Source: a virus
Virus record (IMG/VR): IMGVR_UViG_3300021964_000522
Span: 1-24,114 of that record
Length of the DNA: 24,114 bases
Direction: 5' to 3' (one strand)
Shown here piece by piece: positions 316 through 7,412 of the stretch. A program made the translations under genes and the position numbers. The notes beneath the pieces are model-generated. The model did no database searches. It saw nothing but the letters and a program-made list of their open reading frames with translations, and was not told the DNA's origin. Position 1 is the first letter of the stretch. Each line of letters starts with the position of its first letter.

Positions 316-567
316 TTATACGATTTCAACAACTTTGTCAGCATAGAAAGATTTCCACGAGCTAGACGACACTTCATAGATAGGGATCTGACCACGGGCC
401 TTCATAGCCTCACCCTGAGCCATTCCCTTGTCGGACCCTACGATCTTACTGGTAGGCTTGAAGAGGCCATTGACTACGCGGATGCTACCGTCTTTCTTGA
501 TGAAGCTGACTGTGGCGAACTTGGTGCCTTTGGCTTCGATGATCTGGTGGATAGTGTTGATGTCCAT
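316..567 (-). CDS. Small phage protein, probable SH3-like beta-barrel fold
   Basis: This 83-residue protein starts at an ATG preceded on the minus strand by AAGGAGTGAAACGACG. The pattern of a short N-terminal helix (MDINTIHQIIEAKG), then FATVSFIKKDGSIRVVNG, a variable loop and a C-terminal IPIYEV...YADKVVEIV strand resembles small phage proteins annotated as SH3 beta-barrel fold-containing, which occur in early regions of many phages and have no established biochemical role. The resemblance is from memory of the family pattern, not a search. It lies in the leftward operon and is likely expressed early. Confidence 0.7.
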   Translation of the reverse strand: MDINTIHQIIEAKGTKFATVSFIKKDGSIRVVNGLFKPTSKIVGSDKGMAQGEAMKARGQIPIYEVSSSSWKSFYADKVVEIV

Positions 568-805: not shown

Positions 806-973
806 TCAGAATTGTGGGTAGAACACTTCGCCATTCATGTATTCGCTAACCAAGTGTTCTAGGTGTTTGTGCAGGTGAGGGCAATAGCCACCCTCCCATT
901 CGATCTCGTCGATCTGTCGTTTGGTGTTGCTGATCTCTTGTTCCATAGGGATTACATCTTTAAGCATTTCCAT
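806..973 (-). CDS. Small hypothetical protein (55 aa)
   Basis: The frame runs from ATG (complement of 971-973) to TGA (complement of 806-808). The start lies just after the stop of the upstream leftward gene, and its leader AAGGAACGGAGTGAC (complement of 978-992) is the last part of that gene. The protein begins MEMLKDVIPMEQEISNTKRQ and contains a CPHLHKHLEH stretch rich in His with one Cys; this could bind a metal but is too short to claim a site. Its 3' end carries a 17-base stretch (814-830) found inverted at 3890-3906. No family recognised. Confidence 0.6.
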   Translation of the reverse strand: MEMLKDVIPMEQEISNTKRQIDEIEWEGGYCPHLHKHLEHLVSEYMNGEVFYPQF

Positions 974-978
974 CGTGG

Positions 979-1212
979 TCACTCCGTTCCTTGCTTGAGT
1001 TGCTCTCTGACACCTTCGTAGACGATTCGGCAGATCACGTCAACAGCTTTGTCGAGGTAATCGAACTCACCCTCTAGCTTGAGCATGAAGTAGGCTGCAA
1101 GGCCATTCATCAGGGGAGACTTGTCGTCTACGTTGTGGCCCTTCTCTGCCAGTGCGACAGCATAGATGTGACCAAGTTCTTCGATCAGTGATTGTGCCTC
1201 CTTAATTTCCAT
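979..1212 (-). CDS. Small hypothetical protein (77 aa), first gene of the leftward operon
   Basis: The protein begins MEIKEAQSLIEELGHIYAVA and is predicted by eye to be mostly alpha-helical, with acidic and hydrophobic residues alternating. The ATG is preceded by AAGGAACGGAGTGACGAG on the minus strand, a leader nearly repeated before the next gene and before the small terminase. It is the promoter-proximal gene of the leftward transcription unit that starts near 1430, so its mRNA carries the five-copy leader repeat at 1234-1368. No family recognised. Confidence 0.6.
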   Translation of the reverse strand: MEIKEAQSLIEELGHIYAVALAEKGHNVDDKSPLMNGLAAYFMLKLEGEFDYLDKAVDVICRIVYEGVREQLKQGTE

Positions 1213-1233
1213 CTCGTCACTCCGTTCCTTAAA

Positions 1234-1368
1234 TTCTCTCGTGGGGTGTTGTTGGAATCACCCTGAACAATTTCCTCGTGGGGGTCAAGTAGAATTTTTT
1301 CCTGCTCATTTCCCTCGTGGGGTCAGGCGAACATTTCCCTCGTGGGGGTGAGCTTTTCCCTCGTGGGG
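1234..1368 (-). repeat. Five-copy direct repeat in the leader of the leftward operon
   Basis: Five copies of a TTTCCCTCGTGGGG-type element lie at about 1234-1246, 1271-1284, 1309-1322, 1334-1348 and 1355-1368. The last three are near identical; the first two are diverged at the left end. Read in the leftward transcript each copy is CCCCACGAGGGAAA, which can form a short CCC/GGG stem and contains the purine-rich GAGGGA. All lie between the leftward promoter and its first gene, so they are in the 5' untranslated RNA and could be protein-binding or antitermination-like sites. Confidence 0.7.
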
Positions 1369-1418
1369 TATCCTGATACCTCATGCCGCACCGCAGCGAG
1401 AACGAATCGGGAACACGT

Positions 1419-1433
1419 GATTCTGGCCGAATC
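1419..1433. repeat. GANTC dyad downstream of the leftward promoter
   Basis: GATTC-TGGCC-GAATC is an inverted repeat with 5-base half sites; each half is a GANTC site. It lies just downstream of the -10 box at 1437-1442, around the expected transcription start of the leftward unit, so it could be an operator or a methylation-sensitive site. A similar dyad, GATTC-N6-GAATC, is at 3693-3708 near the other promoter. Confidence 0.4.
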
Positions 1434-1436
1434 TAC

Positions 1437-1465
1437 ATGATACCACGAATCGGCGGTGGCGTCAA
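1437..1465 (-). promoter_or_regulatory. Leftward sigma-70-like promoter
   Basis: On the minus strand the sequence reads TTGACG-N17-TATCAT, five of six matches to each consensus box at ideal spacing (-35 at 1460-1465, -10 at 1437-1442). It points toward the small leftward genes with a predicted start near 1430, giving a leader of about 220 bases. The spacer next to the -10 contains GATTCGTGG, a motif also found in both orientations around the promoter at 3750-3778. Confidence 0.65.
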
Positions 1466-1470
1466 CCCCT

Positions 1471-1530
1471 AATCTTTCGACGACGACACATATCTTTCGA
1501 GTCATGGGCGAGTCTTTCGATAGCGTCACG
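1471..1530. repeat. Three 20-bp iterons with TCTTTCGA cores
   Basis: TCTTTCGA occurs at 1473-1480, 1493-1500 and 1513-1520, exactly 20 bases apart, about two helical turns. The array begins 8 bases upstream of the -35 box of the leftward promoter. A fourth, inverted partial copy (CGAAAGATA) is at 1549-1557. The regular spacing on one DNA face fits binding sites of an activator, a repressor or a replication initiator. No candidate binding protein is encoded in the window. Confidence 0.65.
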
Positions 1531-1634
1531 ATAGAGTCCTACCTAGCGCGAAAGATAGCTCCAACGCGCAAAATGTGTTCCAGATTGGTTCCAGCCTAGC
1601 AAACGCGGATTCTAACGCCACAACGCTCAATTTT

Positions 1635-1649
1635 GCATAGCTGCTATGC
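1635..1649. promoter_or_regulatory. 15-bp perfect palindrome, candidate operator
   Basis: GCATAGC-T-GCTATGC is a perfect 7-1-7 palindrome lying 12 bases upstream of the -35 box of the rightward promoter. Its position and symmetry fit a dimeric transcription factor site. A palindrome of the same 7-T-7 form but different sequence lies at 4105-4119. Confidence 0.5.
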
Positions 1650-1661
1650 GCTAGAAACATA

Positions 1662-1691
1662 TTGACGCCAGTAGCGACTCACGCTTATAAG
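1662..1691 (+). promoter_or_regulatory. Rightward promoter of the GP88 cassette
   Basis: TTGACG (1662-1667) and TATAAG (1686-1691) are separated by 18 bases, each five of six to consensus. The predicted start is near 1698, and the first gene begins at 1726 after an AAGGA at 1713-1717. It would drive the cassette up to the terminator at 3480-3506. Confidence 0.6.
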
Positions 1692-1725
1692 TAGTGCAAC
1701 GCAACCAAATATAAGGAATCGCAAT

Positions 1726-2400
1726 ATGACTCGTCCCTTCACAATGACGCTTAAAGCCGCGCAAGAGTCGGCCCGCATTAGCCTAGGCAATAGTAAAATG
1801 CCCGGCACGACATTTGCGCAAGACGCATTTGCATGTAAAGTTGGCGACAAATTAGCTAAGGTTGAGGGAAGCGTTTGCTCCAAATGCTATGCCCGCAAGA
1901 TCCAACGCCTACGCCCTAGCGTCAATCTAGGCTGGAAAGCTAATCTGGAAAAGGCGCGGCATTGGTTAAGCGTCAATCCTAAACAATGGATTGAATCTTG
2001 CGTGTTCCAGATCAACCGCGCCGCTAATAAGACGGGGGAGTCTTTTCATAGGTGGTTTGACTCTGGTGACTTGGACTCGGTGCAGCAGCTTGACGCTATA
2101 TGTAAGGTCGCGGAATTGACTCCTAGCATTGCCCATTGGTTGCCAACGCGCGAGGCTGGAATCGTCAAAGCGTATAAGAAACAAGGTGGCGTTATTCCGG
2201 GCAACCTAGTTATCCGCGTTAGTGCAACCATGATAGGTGACAAGCCTATGCGCGGGCATGAGAACACTAGCACTGTTCACGTTAAAGGGACTCAAGCCTA
2301 TGGCCATTCTTGCCCCGCTTACATTCAAGGCAACGCTTGCGGCACTTGTCGCGCTTGCTGGAATCCTAGTGTCGCAAATGTCAGTTACCCAAAACACTAG
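1726..2400 (+). CDS. GP88-family phage protein (cysteine-rich, function unknown)
   Basis: The 224-residue protein resembles the phage gene product 88 family: an N-terminal SLGNSKMPGTTF segment (residues 19-30), SVCSKCYARK (49-58), a central RWFDSGDL motif (109-116), HWLPTREA (137-144) and a C-terminal cysteine cluster. Cysteines at 51 and 54 and at 196, 205, 208 and 211 form C-x2-C and C-x8-C-x2-C-x2-C patterns that suggest bound metal or an iron-sulfur cluster; that is inference. Start chosen at the ATG after AAGGA (1713-1717). It heads a separate plus-strand cassette with its own promoter and terminator. The role of the family is not established. Family assignment is from motif recognition, without a search. 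Confidence 0.8.
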   Translation: MTRPFTMTLKAAQESARISLGNSKMPGTTFAQDAFACKVGDKLAKVEGSVCSKCYARKIQRLRPSVNLGWKANLEKARHWLSVNPKQWIESCVFQINRAANKTGESFHRWFDSGDLDSVQQLDAICKVAELTPSIAHWLPTREAGIVKAYKKQGGVIPGNLVIRVSATMIGDKPMRGHENTSTVHVKGTQAYGHSCPAYIQGNACGTCRACWNPSVANVSYPKH

Positions 2401-2468
2401 GCTTGACGCGACACAACGAATCGCGCATAGTCAATGCAACGGAAACGACAACACAAGGAAACAAAACA

Positions 2469-2660
2469 ATGTTGCTCAAGAATGAAAACACGGTGAAGAT
2501 CTATAACTATGCAATTCGCGGTCAAATTGTCGCTCAAGTGAGAACACGCAAGGATGGACTCGCGGACCTATTTATTGCCGCCCGTGGGAAGGTCGAGACA
2601 ATGCCGACTCGTCAAGCCTTCGATATGGCGCAAACACGCAAGCGCCTTGAGCTTTATTGA
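2469..2660 (+). CDS. Small basic hypothetical protein (63 aa)
   Basis: I place the start at ATG 2469 rather than the in-frame upstream ATG at 2403, because 2469 is preceded by AAGGAAACAAAACA and the upstream residues are low-complexity. The protein begins MLLKNENTVKIYNYAIRGQI and ends in a basic helix-like tail (MAQTRKRLELY). It is the second gene of the GP88 cassette. No family recognised. Confidence 0.55.
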   Translation: MLLKNENTVKIYNYAIRGQIVAQVRTRKDGLADLFIAARGKVETMPTRQAFDMAQTRKRLELY

Positions 2661-2671
2661 GGAGTCTTGGT

Positions 2672-2827
2672 ATGATACGGAATCTATTAATTGACGCATT
2701 GGCGCTAGTCGGTATTTTCGCAATGGTATTTTGTATCTTGTTTGCGGGATACGGGTTTTCTAATGAAGAAGGACTCGGCATATTCTTTCCCGGTTTTGGC
2801 GGTTACTTTTGGAGCTTAGAACAATGA
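2672..2827 (+). CDS. Small single-pass membrane protein (51 aa)
   Basis: The frame runs from ATG 2672 to TGA 2825-2827, with GAGGAG just upstream overlapping the previous stop. Residues 9-29 (ALALVGIFAMVFCILFAGYGF) form one hydrophobic helix, then a short polar and aromatic tail (GGYFWSLEQ). The ATGA overlap with the next gene supports translational coupling. The size and single transmembrane segment are common in phage cassettes that act at the host envelope, but no function can be assigned. Confidence 0.6.
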   Translation: MIRNLLIDALALVGIFAMVFCILFAGYGFSNEEGLGIFFPGFGGYFWSLEQ

Positions 2828-3042
2828 CGCAAGAATACATTGCACCCGGCACAAAGCGAGTCGATAGCCTTGGCGCTTATGTCATGACGTACTATGCCGG
2901 ATCGTGGGATTATACTTATAGCGCCCCATGCCTTCACCTTAACCCGCCCATGTTAGAATATTGGTTGCGCAAGGCTAACGACGAAAGGCTGTTGGAGCTA
3001 GGCGGCGTTTTGTGGGCCGTAGAACAAGGGAAAGGGAATTGA
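2824..3042 (+). CDS. Small hypothetical protein (72 aa)
   Basis: ATG 2824 overlaps the TGA of the preceding gene and has GGAG at 2811-2814; this is preferred over the in-frame TTG at 2809. The protein begins MTQEYIAPGTKRVDSLGAYV and is rich in aromatic residues (YVMTYYAGSWDYTYS), with a Leu-rich C-terminal helix (DERLLELGGVLWAVEQ). No family recognised. Fourth gene of the GP88 cassette. Confidence 0.6.
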   Translation: MTQEYIAPGTKRVDSLGAYVMTYYAGSWDYTYSAPCLHLNPPMLEYWLRKANDERLLELGGVLWAVEQGKGN

Positions 3043-3043
3043 T

Positions 3044-3295
3044 ATGAACACGCAAGAAACATATAATGGTTGGACTAATCGCGCCACATGGCTTGCCAAC
3101 CTATGGCTTGAAGAATGTTTTCAGCAGGATTTGCAAGACGGATATGCCATTTGTTCTGCCCACGTTAAAGATACAATCAATAATATGTTAGCAGAAATGC
3201 CGCATATCGACGGGCTTTTTTCCGACCTATTGCATAGCGCTATTTCTGAGATAGATTGCTATGAGATAGCGGCACAATATAACAAGGAGTCGTAA
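3044..3295 (+). CDS. Small phage protein with NGWTNRATW motif
   Basis: The 83-residue protein opens with MNTQETYNGWTNRATWLANL. The N-G-W-T-N-R-x-T-W-x-x-x-L-W signature recurs at the N-terminus of many small phage and plasmid proteins of unknown role, so this is very likely a real gene. The rest is acidic and mostly helical with no catalytic motif visible. It starts two bases after the stop of the previous gene, as expected for an operon. Confidence 0.7.
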   Translation: MNTQETYNGWTNRATWLANLWLEECFQQDLQDGYAICSAHVKDTINNMLAEMPHIDGLFSDLLHSAISEIDCYEIAAQYNKES

Positions 3296-3296
3296 C

Positions 3297-3437
3297 ATGT
3301 TCTTTTGGTGTATCCTATCCGACGAGCTTGGCGAAGAATTCTCGGTGAAGATAGTAGCGCACGACATGGCCGATTGCATTCAGATCATACGCGAACAGTA
3401 TCCCGAGTCTGGCATAGTAGACGTGAGACGCTATTGA
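3297..3437 (+). CDS. Small hypothetical protein (46 aa), last gene of the GP88 cassette
   Basis: The frame runs from ATG 3297 to TGA 3435-3437. AAGGAG at 3284-3289, at ideal spacing, overlaps the 3' end of the preceding gene. The peptide begins MFFWCILSDELGEEFSVKIV and contains a strand-helix-strand-like order (FSVKIVAH, DMADCIQIIREQYP, SGIVDVRRY), which looks like a small folded domain. No family recognised. The terminator at 3480-3506 follows. Confidence 0.6.
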   Translation: MFFWCILSDELGEEFSVKIVAHDMADCIQIIREQYPESGIVDVRRY

Positions 3438-3479
3438 CGCGCTAGAACGGCCCTTACAAGCCCGAGTCGATACTTTAGG

Positions 3480-3506
3480 CCCCTGCCCTACCCGGCGGGG
3501 GTTTTT
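3480..3506 (+). terminator. Intrinsic terminator of the GP88 cassette
   Basis: CCCCTGCC (3480-3487) pairs fully with GGCGGGGG (3494-3501), with one G-U pair, around a 6-base loop, and is followed directly by TTTTT. It lies 42 bases after the last cassette gene and closes the plus-strand unit begun near 1698, so the structural genes must use a separate promoter. Confidence 0.85.
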
Positions 3507-3698
3507 GCTTGTGTGCGGCGCTCTCAGGCGCTATCAGAGGCATGTGCATTTATGCAATGGTCGCATGGTGTTGTCGTGCAATTCTGCACAATGGTTTTTG
3601 ACCATTTGGTAAAATATGGGAATGCGAATCAGATCGTATGGTGTCAGCGCCCCCCGAATCCTCTGTCAAGAAAATCTTTTGTATTGACACGAGATTCA

Positions 3699-3798
3699 CC
3701 CACGAATCAGCTAATGTGTTGCACTTTAGTCACACTATGGATTTTTTCGTTGACAGGGGGCGTGGGACCCTCTAGAATCTGCGCGGATGATTCGTGGG
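3699..3798. repeat. Inverted CCCACGAATCA / TGATTCGTGGG pair flanking a promoter
   Basis: An 11-base motif CCCACGAATCA at 3699-3709 and its exact complement at 3788-3798 flank the promoter boxes at 3750-3778. The right copy lies about +3 to +13 relative to the predicted start. The shared core GATTCGTGG is also inside the leftward promoter spacer (complement of 1443-1451). These are candidate sites for one regulator acting at both promoters. Confidence 0.5.
3750..3778 (+). promoter_or_regulatory. Strong rightward promoter upstream of the structural genes
   Basis: TTGACA (3750-3755) is a perfect -35 and TAGAAT (3773-3778) is five of six for the -10, with an ideal 17-base spacer. It is the best sigma-70-like promoter noticed in the window and points to the terminase and head genes, with a predicted start near 3785 and a leader of about 515 bases. 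A weaker candidate (TTGTGA 3985-3990, N18, TATAGT 4009-4014) lies downstream. Confidence 0.7.
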
Positions 3799-3851
3799 GT
3801 AGGGTAACGACACATATATTCAAAGGAAGAAAAAGGTTCAGGTAGTTACCA

Positions 3852-3998
3852 ATGTCAAGTAAAGGCAGGCATCATCCTACGATTCGACCCGAAGTGTTCT
3901 ACCCACGACAGAAAAAAAGTAAAAATTCTTTCGTTACATTACAACACTTTAGATACATCAGCAGAAAAAAGTTGAAAATAGTGCTTGTGAACTCTTAA
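3852..3998 (+). CDS. Possible small basic protein (48 aa)
   Basis: ATG 3852 opens 48 codons ending at TAA 3996-3998. The peptide begins MSSKGRHHPTIRPEVFYPRQ and is very basic, as in small nucleic-acid-binding proteins. In favour: it is the first ATG frame after the strong promoter, and its 17-base segment 3890-3906 matches, in the same reading frame (EVFYP), the 3' end of the leftward gene 806-973. Against: the ribosome binding site is weak and the region turns AT-rich and A-tract-rich within the frame. It may be a gene remnant. Confidence 0.25.
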   Translation: MSSKGRHHPTIRPEVFYPRQKKSKNSFVTLQHFRYISRKKLKIVLVNS

Positions 3999-4016
3999 AA
4001 AAAGTGCCTATAGTAT

Positions 4017-4136
4017 AGTAAGACCCCTTACTTAAGAATAAACTATAGTTTTTCACTTAGGCTTATTAATTATAATAGATTATAAGACTCAAGTATAAAT
4101 CTTAAGTATAGTCTATACTGTCGTAGCGCTGCTACG
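4017..4136. repeat. Cluster of perfect dyads in an AT-rich island
   Basis: Five inverted repeats lie in 120 bases: AGTAAG-N4-CTTACT (4017-4032), AAACTATAGTTT (4040-4051), TTATAAT-AG-ATTATAA (4070-4085), AGTATAG-T-CTATACT (4105-4119) and CGTAGC-GCT-GCTACG (4122-4136). All are perfect. They sit about 170 bases upstream of the small terminase start, in the classical position of a packaging recognition site, but an origin or a multi-operator control site is equally possible. Confidence 0.55.
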
Positions 4137-4301
4137 CAGCTTGAGTATCCCCTAAGCCAACCAAGACGAACCTAGTCAAGATTGTCGTATCATGTAGATG
4201 TGGTCTTGCTGATGGCTCCTTTATTGGGATACATGTCCTCCAGAACATATCAATCTGGACTACCCACCTAAGTTTGATTTGTCGTTAAGGAACGCAGTGA
4301 C

Positions 4302-4697
4302 GTGGCATACGACCCCCTCCCATACAGTAAGAATGTTGAGAAGCACGTCCTTGAGTGCATTCAGGGGGGTGTCGGTATCCGTGAGATGTTAGCTTCTATG
4401 CAGCATCTACAGGGTGCGCCTAAGTCTCTTTCGACACTCTACAAGATCTATGGCACTATCATCCACAGTGAGAGAGCTAGGATCAATGCTGCTGTTGGTC
4501 GTAAGGTCATTGACCAAGCCCTAGAGGGTGATTTCAAGTCTCAAGAGCTTTTCCTTCGTAGTAAGGGTGGGTGGTCCCCGAAAGAGACTGTTGAGACAAC
4601 CGAAGGTATCGACGAAGATACTGACGAGAGTGCAGTTGACGCATTGATGAATTTGTTAGGTTTTGGTGATGACGAAGAAGAGAGCGATAACCGCTGA
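4302..4697 (+). CDS. terS: Terminase small subunit
   Basis: This 131-residue protein directly precedes the large terminase and fits the small-subunit pattern: an N-terminal helical DNA-binding region (VLECIQGGVGIREMLASM...SLSTLYKIYG, about residues 17-49), a helical middle that would oligomerise, the GDFKSQELFLRSKGGW motif (about 77-92) and an acidic tail. It would recognise phage DNA and deliver it to the packaging motor at the procapsid portal. The start is GTG at 4302, supported by AAGGAACGCAGTGAC (4287-4301), which closely matches leaders of two early genes. It overlaps the large subunit gene in another frame, implying coupled translation. Confidence 0.85.
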   Translation: MAYDPLPYSKNVEKHVLECIQGGVGIREMLASMQHLQGAPKSLSTLYKIYGTIIHSERARINAAVGRKVIDQALEGDFKSQELFLRSKGGWSPKETVETTEGIDEDTDESAVDALMNLLGFGDDEEESDNR

Positions 4698-6065: not shown

Positions 6066-7412
6066 ATGGTCAAGAAGCTCTCAGAGACGCAAGCCAAGCA
6101 GACCCTTGGTGTTGCAGGTGATAATGTCACTAACGGTCAGATCCGTGCTGATGAGTTTCTGCCTGAGCTTCGCGGTAAGAAGGCTGTCCGTAAATATCGT
6201 GAGATGCGGGATAACGATAGCACTATCGGTGCAGTTATGTATGCTACTGAGCAAGTGCTACGGGATGTTAAGCTCCACGTTAAGCCAGCTAACGACACAG
6301 CAGCAGCTAGTGCAGAAGCTGAGTTTGTCAAGAGTGTTTTAGACGATATGGACCACTCCTTGGATGACCATGTATCTGAGGCTTTGTCGTTCCTGTCGTA
6401 TGGCTTTGCTTGGTTTGAGGTTGTGTATAAGCGTCGTGAAGGGATGCAGACTACCAACCCTAAGAAGCGTTCCAAGTTTGATGATGGTCGTATCGGTGTC
6501 CGTAAGATTGCTGTCCGTGCGCCTTGGACTGTAAGCAGGTTTGATGTAGATCGTGTGTCAGGTGATGTCTTGGGTCTGTATCAAGACGTAGGCAACTTTA
6601 ATGGCACCCACTACATCCCAGTAAACAAGTCCCTCTACTATCGGACCACAAGCATCAACGGTGACCCTTCTGGTCGTTCAGTCCTGCGGAACGCTTATAC
6701 CTCGTATGAATACCTTAATAATCTTCAATCCATCGAAGCTATCGCAGTTGAGCGTGAGTTGGCTGGTATCCCAGTTGCTCGTATCCCCGCTGAGTATCTC
6801 TCTAATGATGCTTCTTCTGCACAAGCTGGTTTCGTAAACAACCTACGTCAAATCCTCCGTGACGTAAAGTTCAACGAGCAAGGCTACATTATTCTCCCGT
6901 CGGATACCTATCCTGACAAAGATGGCGCACCCACTAATGTCCGTCTTGTCGATGTAGAACTGATGGCGTCTAATGGTAAGCGTAACATTGATATCGACCC
7001 CATCGTGAAGCGGTATCAGCACGACATTGCTCGTTCAGTCTTGTCTGAGTTTCTTCTGCTTGGATCGCAGGGCGGTTCCTATGCCCTCTCCAAGTCGAAG
7101 ACAGACCTGTTCCTCCGTGCGCTTGAGAGCTACATCCAAGCAATCGTAGACGTTCTCAACAAACAGTTGGTCGAGCGTCTCTGGGAGTTGAACGGTCTGA
7201 ATTATGACCTGATGCCCCGGATTGAAGCTGGGGATGTCGCCCCGCACGATCTCCGTGAGATTGCAGCATTTCTGCGTAATCTTAACGGCGCTAACATTGA
7301 CGTTAGCACACACCCAGAGGTTATCCAAGATCTCATGGATATCGCTGAACTTAACTACGACCCTACCGTGGGTCAAACAAATCAAGAAGATCAACCCACG
7401 AAAGAGGGATAA
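6066..7412 (+). CDS. Portal protein
   Basis: This 448-residue protein follows the large terminase, where the portal gene is expected, and carries the signature of DUF935-like portals: KYREMRDNDSTIGAVMYATEQ near residues 43-63, then AEFVKSVLDDMDHSLDDHVSEALSF and YGFAWFEVVYKRREG, and a C-terminal half with QYHD-like helices (IVKRYQHDIARSVLSEFLLL). Portal proteins form the dodecameric channel at the head vertex through which DNA enters and leaves and to which the terminase docks. The tail is acidic and polar. No truncation seen. Confidence 0.88.
   Translation: MVKKLSETQAKQTLGVAGDNVTNGQIRADEFLPELRGKKAVRKYREMRDNDSTIGAVMYATEQVLRDVKLHVKPANDTAAASAEAEFVKSVLDDMDHSLDDHVSEALSFLSYGFAWFEVVYKRREGMQTTNPKKRSKFDDGRIGVRKIAVRAPWTVSRFDVDRVSGDVLGLYQDVGNFNGTHYIPVNKSLYYRTTSINGDPSGRSVLRNAYTSYEYLNNLQSIEAIAVERELAGIPVARIPAEYLSNDASSAQAGFVNNLRQILRDVKFNEQGYIILPSDTYPDKDGAPTNVRLVDVELMASNGKRNIDIDPIVKRYQHDIARSVLSEFLLLGSQGGSYALSKSKTDLFLRALESYIQAIVDVLNKQLVERLWELNGLNYDLMPRIEAGDVAPHDLREIAAFLRNLNGANIDVSTHPEVIQDLMDIAELNYDPTVGQTNQEDQPTKEG

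Follow-up and report, generated by a model that had tools for sequence, protein, structure and literature searches.

The closest described counterparts of the locus analyzed here are the phased activator or repressor arrays of divergent phage control regions, the iterons of plasmids and phages, the CcrM/GcrA promoters of Alphaproteobacteria, and the genome of Roseobacter phage CRP-6 (MK613348). In the available text of its genome paper, CRP-6 is presented as a podovirus and the founder of a new group, ubiquitous in the ocean; the same text describes no cis-acting control site (PMC6918029). High conservation of CcrM and GcrA across Alphaproteobacteria has been described (PMC3667746), and GcrA, together with CcrM methylation, has been proposed as an activator of promoters containing YGAKTCG/TGATTCG (PMC7987155).

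Our locus resembles phased activator and repressor arrays in having direct sites about two helical turns apart that adjoin −35-like elements, but differs in that its units turn over between sister phages and several site types are mixed. With plasmid and phage iterons, such as those of PLE RepA (PMC8263062), it shares one-orientation direct repeats, a single locus, and modular exchange of repeat segments; unlike them, it sets different repeats beside common early genes and carries promoter-like words between sites. As in CcrM/GcrA promoters (PMC3667746, PMC7987155), GANTC, often in the form TGATTCG, lies between the predicted −35 and −10 elements, whereas the very high GANTC density over 0.5–3 kb of phage genome is particular to this locus. 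CRP-6 (MK613348, PMC6918029) is alike in gene order, leader repeats, GANTC-rich control region, and array position, and unlike in that its array consists of TTGCAAAAATGTCAC in 16–17-bp steps and not of the site TATCTTTCGATA treated below.

The phage and its gene neighborhood

The window, by which we mean the whole stretch of 24,114 nucleotides that was analyzed, is a 24-kb virus record and a fragment of a CRP-6-type marine phage. Its terminase finds its best phage match in CRP-6 (64% amino acid identity) and is 85–90% identical to those of several marine contigs, and blastn over the terminase–portal stretch gives 69%. The window has the homologous terminase, portal, and gene order of a CRP-6-type phage, and G001, a near-complete relative of 46 kb, shares its layout. 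The array lies between divergent operons: the left one, of early and replication genes, leads in G001 to thymidylate synthase, a sigma-like protein, primase, and polymerase, and the right one begins in the window with a GP88 gene, followed by terminase and structural genes. Genes on either side of the array in the window include the following.

316..567, minus strand: WYL_2-domain protein of the left operon (Pfam WYL_2, 2.4e-5, just under the curated cut-off)
979..1212, minus strand: first gene of the left operon, 77 aa, with nine relatives in viral contigs
1726..2400, plus strand: GP88 family gene, first of the right operon (Pfam GP88, 6.8e-16)

The WYL_2 protein family occurs in 45 related contigs, across all array types. 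No known RNA families were found within 900–4400 of the window. In G001 (6068–6210) and many other relatives, ACTTAAGT words are repeated 500–700 bp before the large terminase gene and may be a late control element.

A helically phased array of 12-bp sites

Three exact copies of TCTTTCGA in 20-bp steps had been reported in the preliminary description, and exact matching recovers them on the plus strand at 1473–1480, 1493–1500, and 1513–1520; the inverted partial copy reported with them is likewise present, as CGAAAGATA at 1549–1557. A single further copy of TCTTTCGA exists in the window, at 4427, within a small-terminase-like ORF. Equally spaced exact 8-mer triples (10–60 bp) arose in none of 200 dinucleotide shuffles of the window and in none of 2000 shuffles of the intergenic stretch.

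Relatives were reached by scanning the collection for core pairs at a 20-bp distance and through relatives of the neighboring genes. From 22 distinct copies, collected with the 8-mer core only, we derived a full site of 12 bp, TATCTTTCGATA, whose borders are sharp (more than 1 bit at each inner position, less than 0.4 outside). The relatives hold 3–11 copies of it at this one locus (seven in G001, seven in L030, and 11 in L025 at the same place), in steps that are mostly 18–21 or 41 bp, with 59 and 107 bp also found. Seven of the eight TCTTTCGA copies in G001, and all of its exact 12-mers, fall inside the array. G001, L030, and the window keep site and phase although their spacers no longer resemble one another. 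Transferred to the window, the full site gives the following features.

1471..1482, plus strand: array site 1, AATCTTTCGACG, with an exact core match (TCTTTCGA, 1473–1480) and the 12-bp extent taken from relatives
1491..1502, plus strand: array site 2, TATCTTTCGAGT, core 1493–1500, delimited in the same way
1511..1522, plus strand: array site 3, AGTCTTTCGATA, core 1513–1520, delimited in the same way
1546..1557, minus strand: inverted site 4, GCGCGAAAGATA, 35 bp from site 3, with three mismatches to TATCTTTCGATA

The inverted copy sits in a stretch of 47 bp (~1523–1569) for which the relative L016 shows 90% identity. The three direct copies are poor versions of the full site, with two to three mismatches in the outer bases. 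Given the 3–11 full sites that relatives carry at one locus, mostly 18–21 or 41 bp apart, the array is, by the pattern of its letters, a real, helically phased array of protein-type sites, and the two-turn spacing on one helix face first suggested from the window alone holds for the relatives. The sites are thus phased on one face, as in activator arrays, and also form direct repeats, ~20 bp each and all oriented alike, the geometry of iterons. We read the three copies in the window as a short, partly decayed member of this family of protein-binding-site arrays, in a divergent control region of the CRP-6 type.

Turnover of the array within a constant frame

To look beyond TATCTTTCGATA, 80 control regions were collected by scanning for leader repeats; a small-terminase homologue is carried by 46 of the 80, and membership in the CRP-6 type is not proven for all of them. 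With an array defined by a TRF score of at least 50 within 300 bp, 58 of the 80 loci have repeat arrays, against nine of 640 random 300-mers from the same contigs. Kinship inflates such counts, and dereplicated figures are given where computed; here, grouping similar regions leaves arrays in 25 of 40. Sister phages have units of 10, 16–17, 21, 24, 29 bp and more at the same locus, among them the following.

TTGCAAAAATGTCAC, 16–17-bp steps: the CRP-6 array
GTTCCTGATTCG, 29/11-bp steps: array in other phages
ATACGAAAGGATAGGTCAAT, 21-bp steps: array in other phages
GGTATACGAT, 10-bp steps: array in other phages
ATATGCTTATATTCGAATATT, 24/48-bp steps: array in other phages

In L099 and L100, a second tandem array (AAGCCTGAGCTA × 18 or CCAAGCCTGAGCCATTG × 5) adjoins the first, ~180–400 bp after the leader.

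The frame around the array is kept. Its most constant feature is the leader motif, TTTCC-N3..7-GGGG with variable inner bases, present in three to seven copies just before the first left-operon gene in the window and 36 related loci; clusters of at least three were seen in 36 loci searched, and in G001 the motif occurs on one strand only (15 vs. 0). A role as T7-type primase sites was dropped because GTC is not in all copies. On the other side of the array lies a second conserved element.

1232..1368, minus strand: left-operon leader repeats, five TTTCCCTCGTGGGG-like units with plus-strand starts at 1232, 1269, 1308, 1333, and 1354
1593..1673, strand not assigned: conserved element upstream of the rightward promoter, 83% identical in L039, with matches in L030, L147, and L155
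1635–1649: palindrome GCATAGCTGCTATGC inside the conserved element, kept in variant forms just upstream of the rightward promoter in relatives

Another palindrome, GGTATCCTGATACC, stands at 1367–1380, directly after the last leader repeat, and relatives have GTTATAACA-like palindromes in the same spot.

Two comparisons illustrate the turnover. The L221 and L213 sequences agree at 93% over a stretch that starts 793 bp to the left of their last leader repeat and takes in the leader; their arrays then differ, and similarity returns 139 bp on, at 83% identity. To judge from this alignment, the pair is a natural local swap of the array between conserved flanks. In L039, whose GP88 is the closest found to that of the window (84%), the leader repeats and the rightward promoter are kept and the array is absent, as it also is in L071.

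A neutral minisatellite, arising by slippage during replication of non-coding DNA, would account for arrays that are near-perfect tandem repeats (10 bp × 9, 12 bp × 18, and 41 bp × 6 exist) and for units that differ between phages; it is very improbable, given the retention of site and phase amid fully diverged spacers in G001, L030, and the window and the concentration of arrays at this locus. A still smaller chance, close to negligible, attaches to a DNA packaging (pac/cos) or partition site. The array does lie ~3 kb upstream of the terminase genes, but these are conserved while the array changes, and its position follows the divergent promoters and leader repeats, not the terminase.

A shared vocabulary of site words

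On comparison of the units, the arrays are, as far as the words themselves tell, drawn from a common vocabulary, in which one phage amplifies a word that another has only once. A lone B unit is found in 10 non-B regions (0.6% of random stretches) and a lone C unit in 21 non-C regions (4% of random stretches). The B-type unit, which forms 29/11-bp arrays in other phages, frames the three A sites of the window as an inverted pair.

1400..1414, minus strand: B-type unit at the left flank of the array, reading GTTCCCGATTCGTTC on the minus strand (inverted repeat I1)
1577..1591, plus strand: B-type unit GTTCCAGATTGGTTC at the right flank, in the orientation opposite to that of the left unit

Among 92 sites of the CGAAAG kind, 25 are followed 5–6 bp later by TTGAC on their own strand, or 10 of 52 after dereplication; the reversed control, GTCAA, gives none at 5–6 bp from CGAAAG and seven at 4 bp. 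In the window, the gap from the site of this kind to TTGAC is 8 bp.

Predicted promoters and GANTC

All promoters discussed here are string predictions. The two in the window are listed below; GANTC stands 8 bp after TTGACG, between −35 and −10, in both, the position it has in promoters of the CcrM/GcrA type.

1437..1465, minus strand: predicted leftward promoter, TTGACG-N8-GATTC-N4-TATCAT, by string match
1662..1691, plus strand: predicted rightward promoter, TTGACG-N8-GACTC-N5-TATAAG, before GP88, with GANTC in the spacer

The leftward promoter (TTGACG-N17-TATCAT, read from 1465 to 1437) has 10 of 12 matches, with ~0.7 threshold-passing strings expected per region shuffle. The array had been placed 8 bases from it; the gap between the −35 element and the first repeat is in fact 7 bases. 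A fixed tie between the array and this promoter is not supported by comparison: no conserved leftward sigma-70 promoter was found at the window's position in relatives, and L039 does without the array. Repeat number, which was to be checked in relatives, and even repeat sequence are not conserved at the locus either; where relatives have the 12-bp site, its steps are mostly 18–21 or 41 bp.

The link between GANTC and predicted promoters extends to relatives. Across 48 GANTC-rich relatives, 14 rightward promoters were predicted, and the spacer of 12 of them contains GANTC (background 0.29). Control regions totaling 32 kb hold 14 copies of the module TTGAC-N-GANTC-N-TANNNT, against six in 374 kb elsewhere, the thresholds for motif counts having been set after looking at the sequences. 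GANTC, the methylation site of host CcrM, reaches 24.5 per kb in 20 non-redundant GANTC-rich control regions, about 22-fold the 1.13 per kb found elsewhere, and TGATTCG is 33-fold enriched, with 46 of 48 regions containing it. Of the 68 GANTC sites in the window, 40 lie within the first 4 kb; of the 69 in CRP-6, 38 lie in the corresponding region, there the last 3 kb. GANTC richness divides the set, since 32 of the 80 leader-bearing regions are below the cut-off (first 700 bp after the leader), and the GANTC modules lie hundreds of bases from the array in many relatives.

Over 1000–4000 of the window and 42000–44927 of the CRP-6 sequence (L054), coding sequence included, GANTC density is also about 10-fold that of the remaining genome, a density not shown by the GP88-bearing roseophages CRP-4 and CRP-171. 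A rightward promoter in L030 (~1273–1301, GCGACTCACTATAGAAAGG) is very close to the core of a T7 RNA polymerase promoter; no phage RNA polymerase is annotated in CRP-6, and the resemblance is probably a coincidence of GANTC plus the −10 element.

Candidate partner proteins

No gene or protein that covaries with array type was found. Every gene family tested showed significant similarity by array type, a result that thus reflects kinship only. A small sigma-70-like gene with a region 4 match, very variable in sequence, precedes the primase in 36 related contigs (for example, L061, 4554–5135, minus strand, and L054, 3586–4101, plus strand, the latter annotated as a hypothetical protein in CRP-6). 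Its product was rejected as the determinant of array type: the gene does not follow array type, L150 (A2) and L213 (B) share nearly the same protein, and two highly dissimilar versions accompany A2 arrays. The first gene of the left operon was also set aside as a partner, having no recognized DNA-binding domain and no match in named phages.

Array differences despite near-identical early genes are what would be expected if the partner were a host protein. On this basis, the sites could be repressor or host-range operators that restrain early transcription or bind host-varying regulators, with no phage-encoded partner; the case for it is that array types differ between phages such as L150 and L213, whose early genes, the sigma-like gene included, are near-identical. 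We consider it improbable, as the 12-bp array was not found in the roseobacter genomes scanned: a paired-site scan of 84,980 species genomes returned 30 scattered matches, none of them in a roseobacter, and a host chromosomal origin of the motif was accordingly rejected.

Transcription control or replication

The array had been put forward as that of an activator or a replication initiator. Phased sites of the protein type stand; as to the role, the evidence from sequence leans to transcription control over a replication initiator. Under the replication alternative, the repeats would be origin iterons bound by an initiator, and the divergent promoter region would be the phage origin. Several features fit: direct repeats in a single orientation at two-turn spacing, one locus per genome, both transcription arms diverging there, and a cumulative GC skew that turns there in CRP-6. 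Diversification of initiator sites is also known, from PLE RepA/iteron replicons swapped under nuclease attack (PMC8263062). However, no replication initiator gene was recognized among the early genes scanned, the window being part of a genome only. Phages of this group encode a primase-helicase and a family A DNA polymerase, and T7, with that outfit, needs no iteron-binding initiator. GC skew is inseparable from gene direction here, the 600-bp region is not AT-rich at that scale (GC 0.50), and the L221 and L213 arrays differ while several early genes and the leader are 80–98% identical at the DNA level. We therefore regard an iteron origin as unlikely, though less so than any other rival considered.

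The transcription reading has its own difficulties, in that L039 and L071 lack the array and presumably still transcribe, and relatives do not keep the leftward promoter of the window. We give about even credence to a modular early transcription-control locus that combines the site array with a possible role of host GcrA/CcrM. In such a locus, a putative DNA-binding protein would sit cooperatively on the array, adjoining the TTGAC (−35-like) elements, and would assist host RNA polymerase in initiating early transcription to the left and to the right; host GcrA would act jointly, on CcrM-methylated TGATTCG sites; and the array would be rapidly replaced or amplified anew, perhaps as an adaptation to different hosts.

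Arrays that turn over between close relatives while the frame is kept offer a natural experiment on the evolution of control DNA. A more specific version, which we hold to be rather unlikely, would make the locus a plug-in cassette, in which a fixed frame of leader repeats and GANTC promoter surrounds an array of words amplified from the shared vocabulary and is wired to the cell-cycle methylation of host CcrM/GcrA. If so, the early program would be started according to the methylation state of the host, and a change of host would be met by a change of the amplified word. Should the GANTC link be true, a lytic phage would be reading host cell-cycle methylation at its main promoters.
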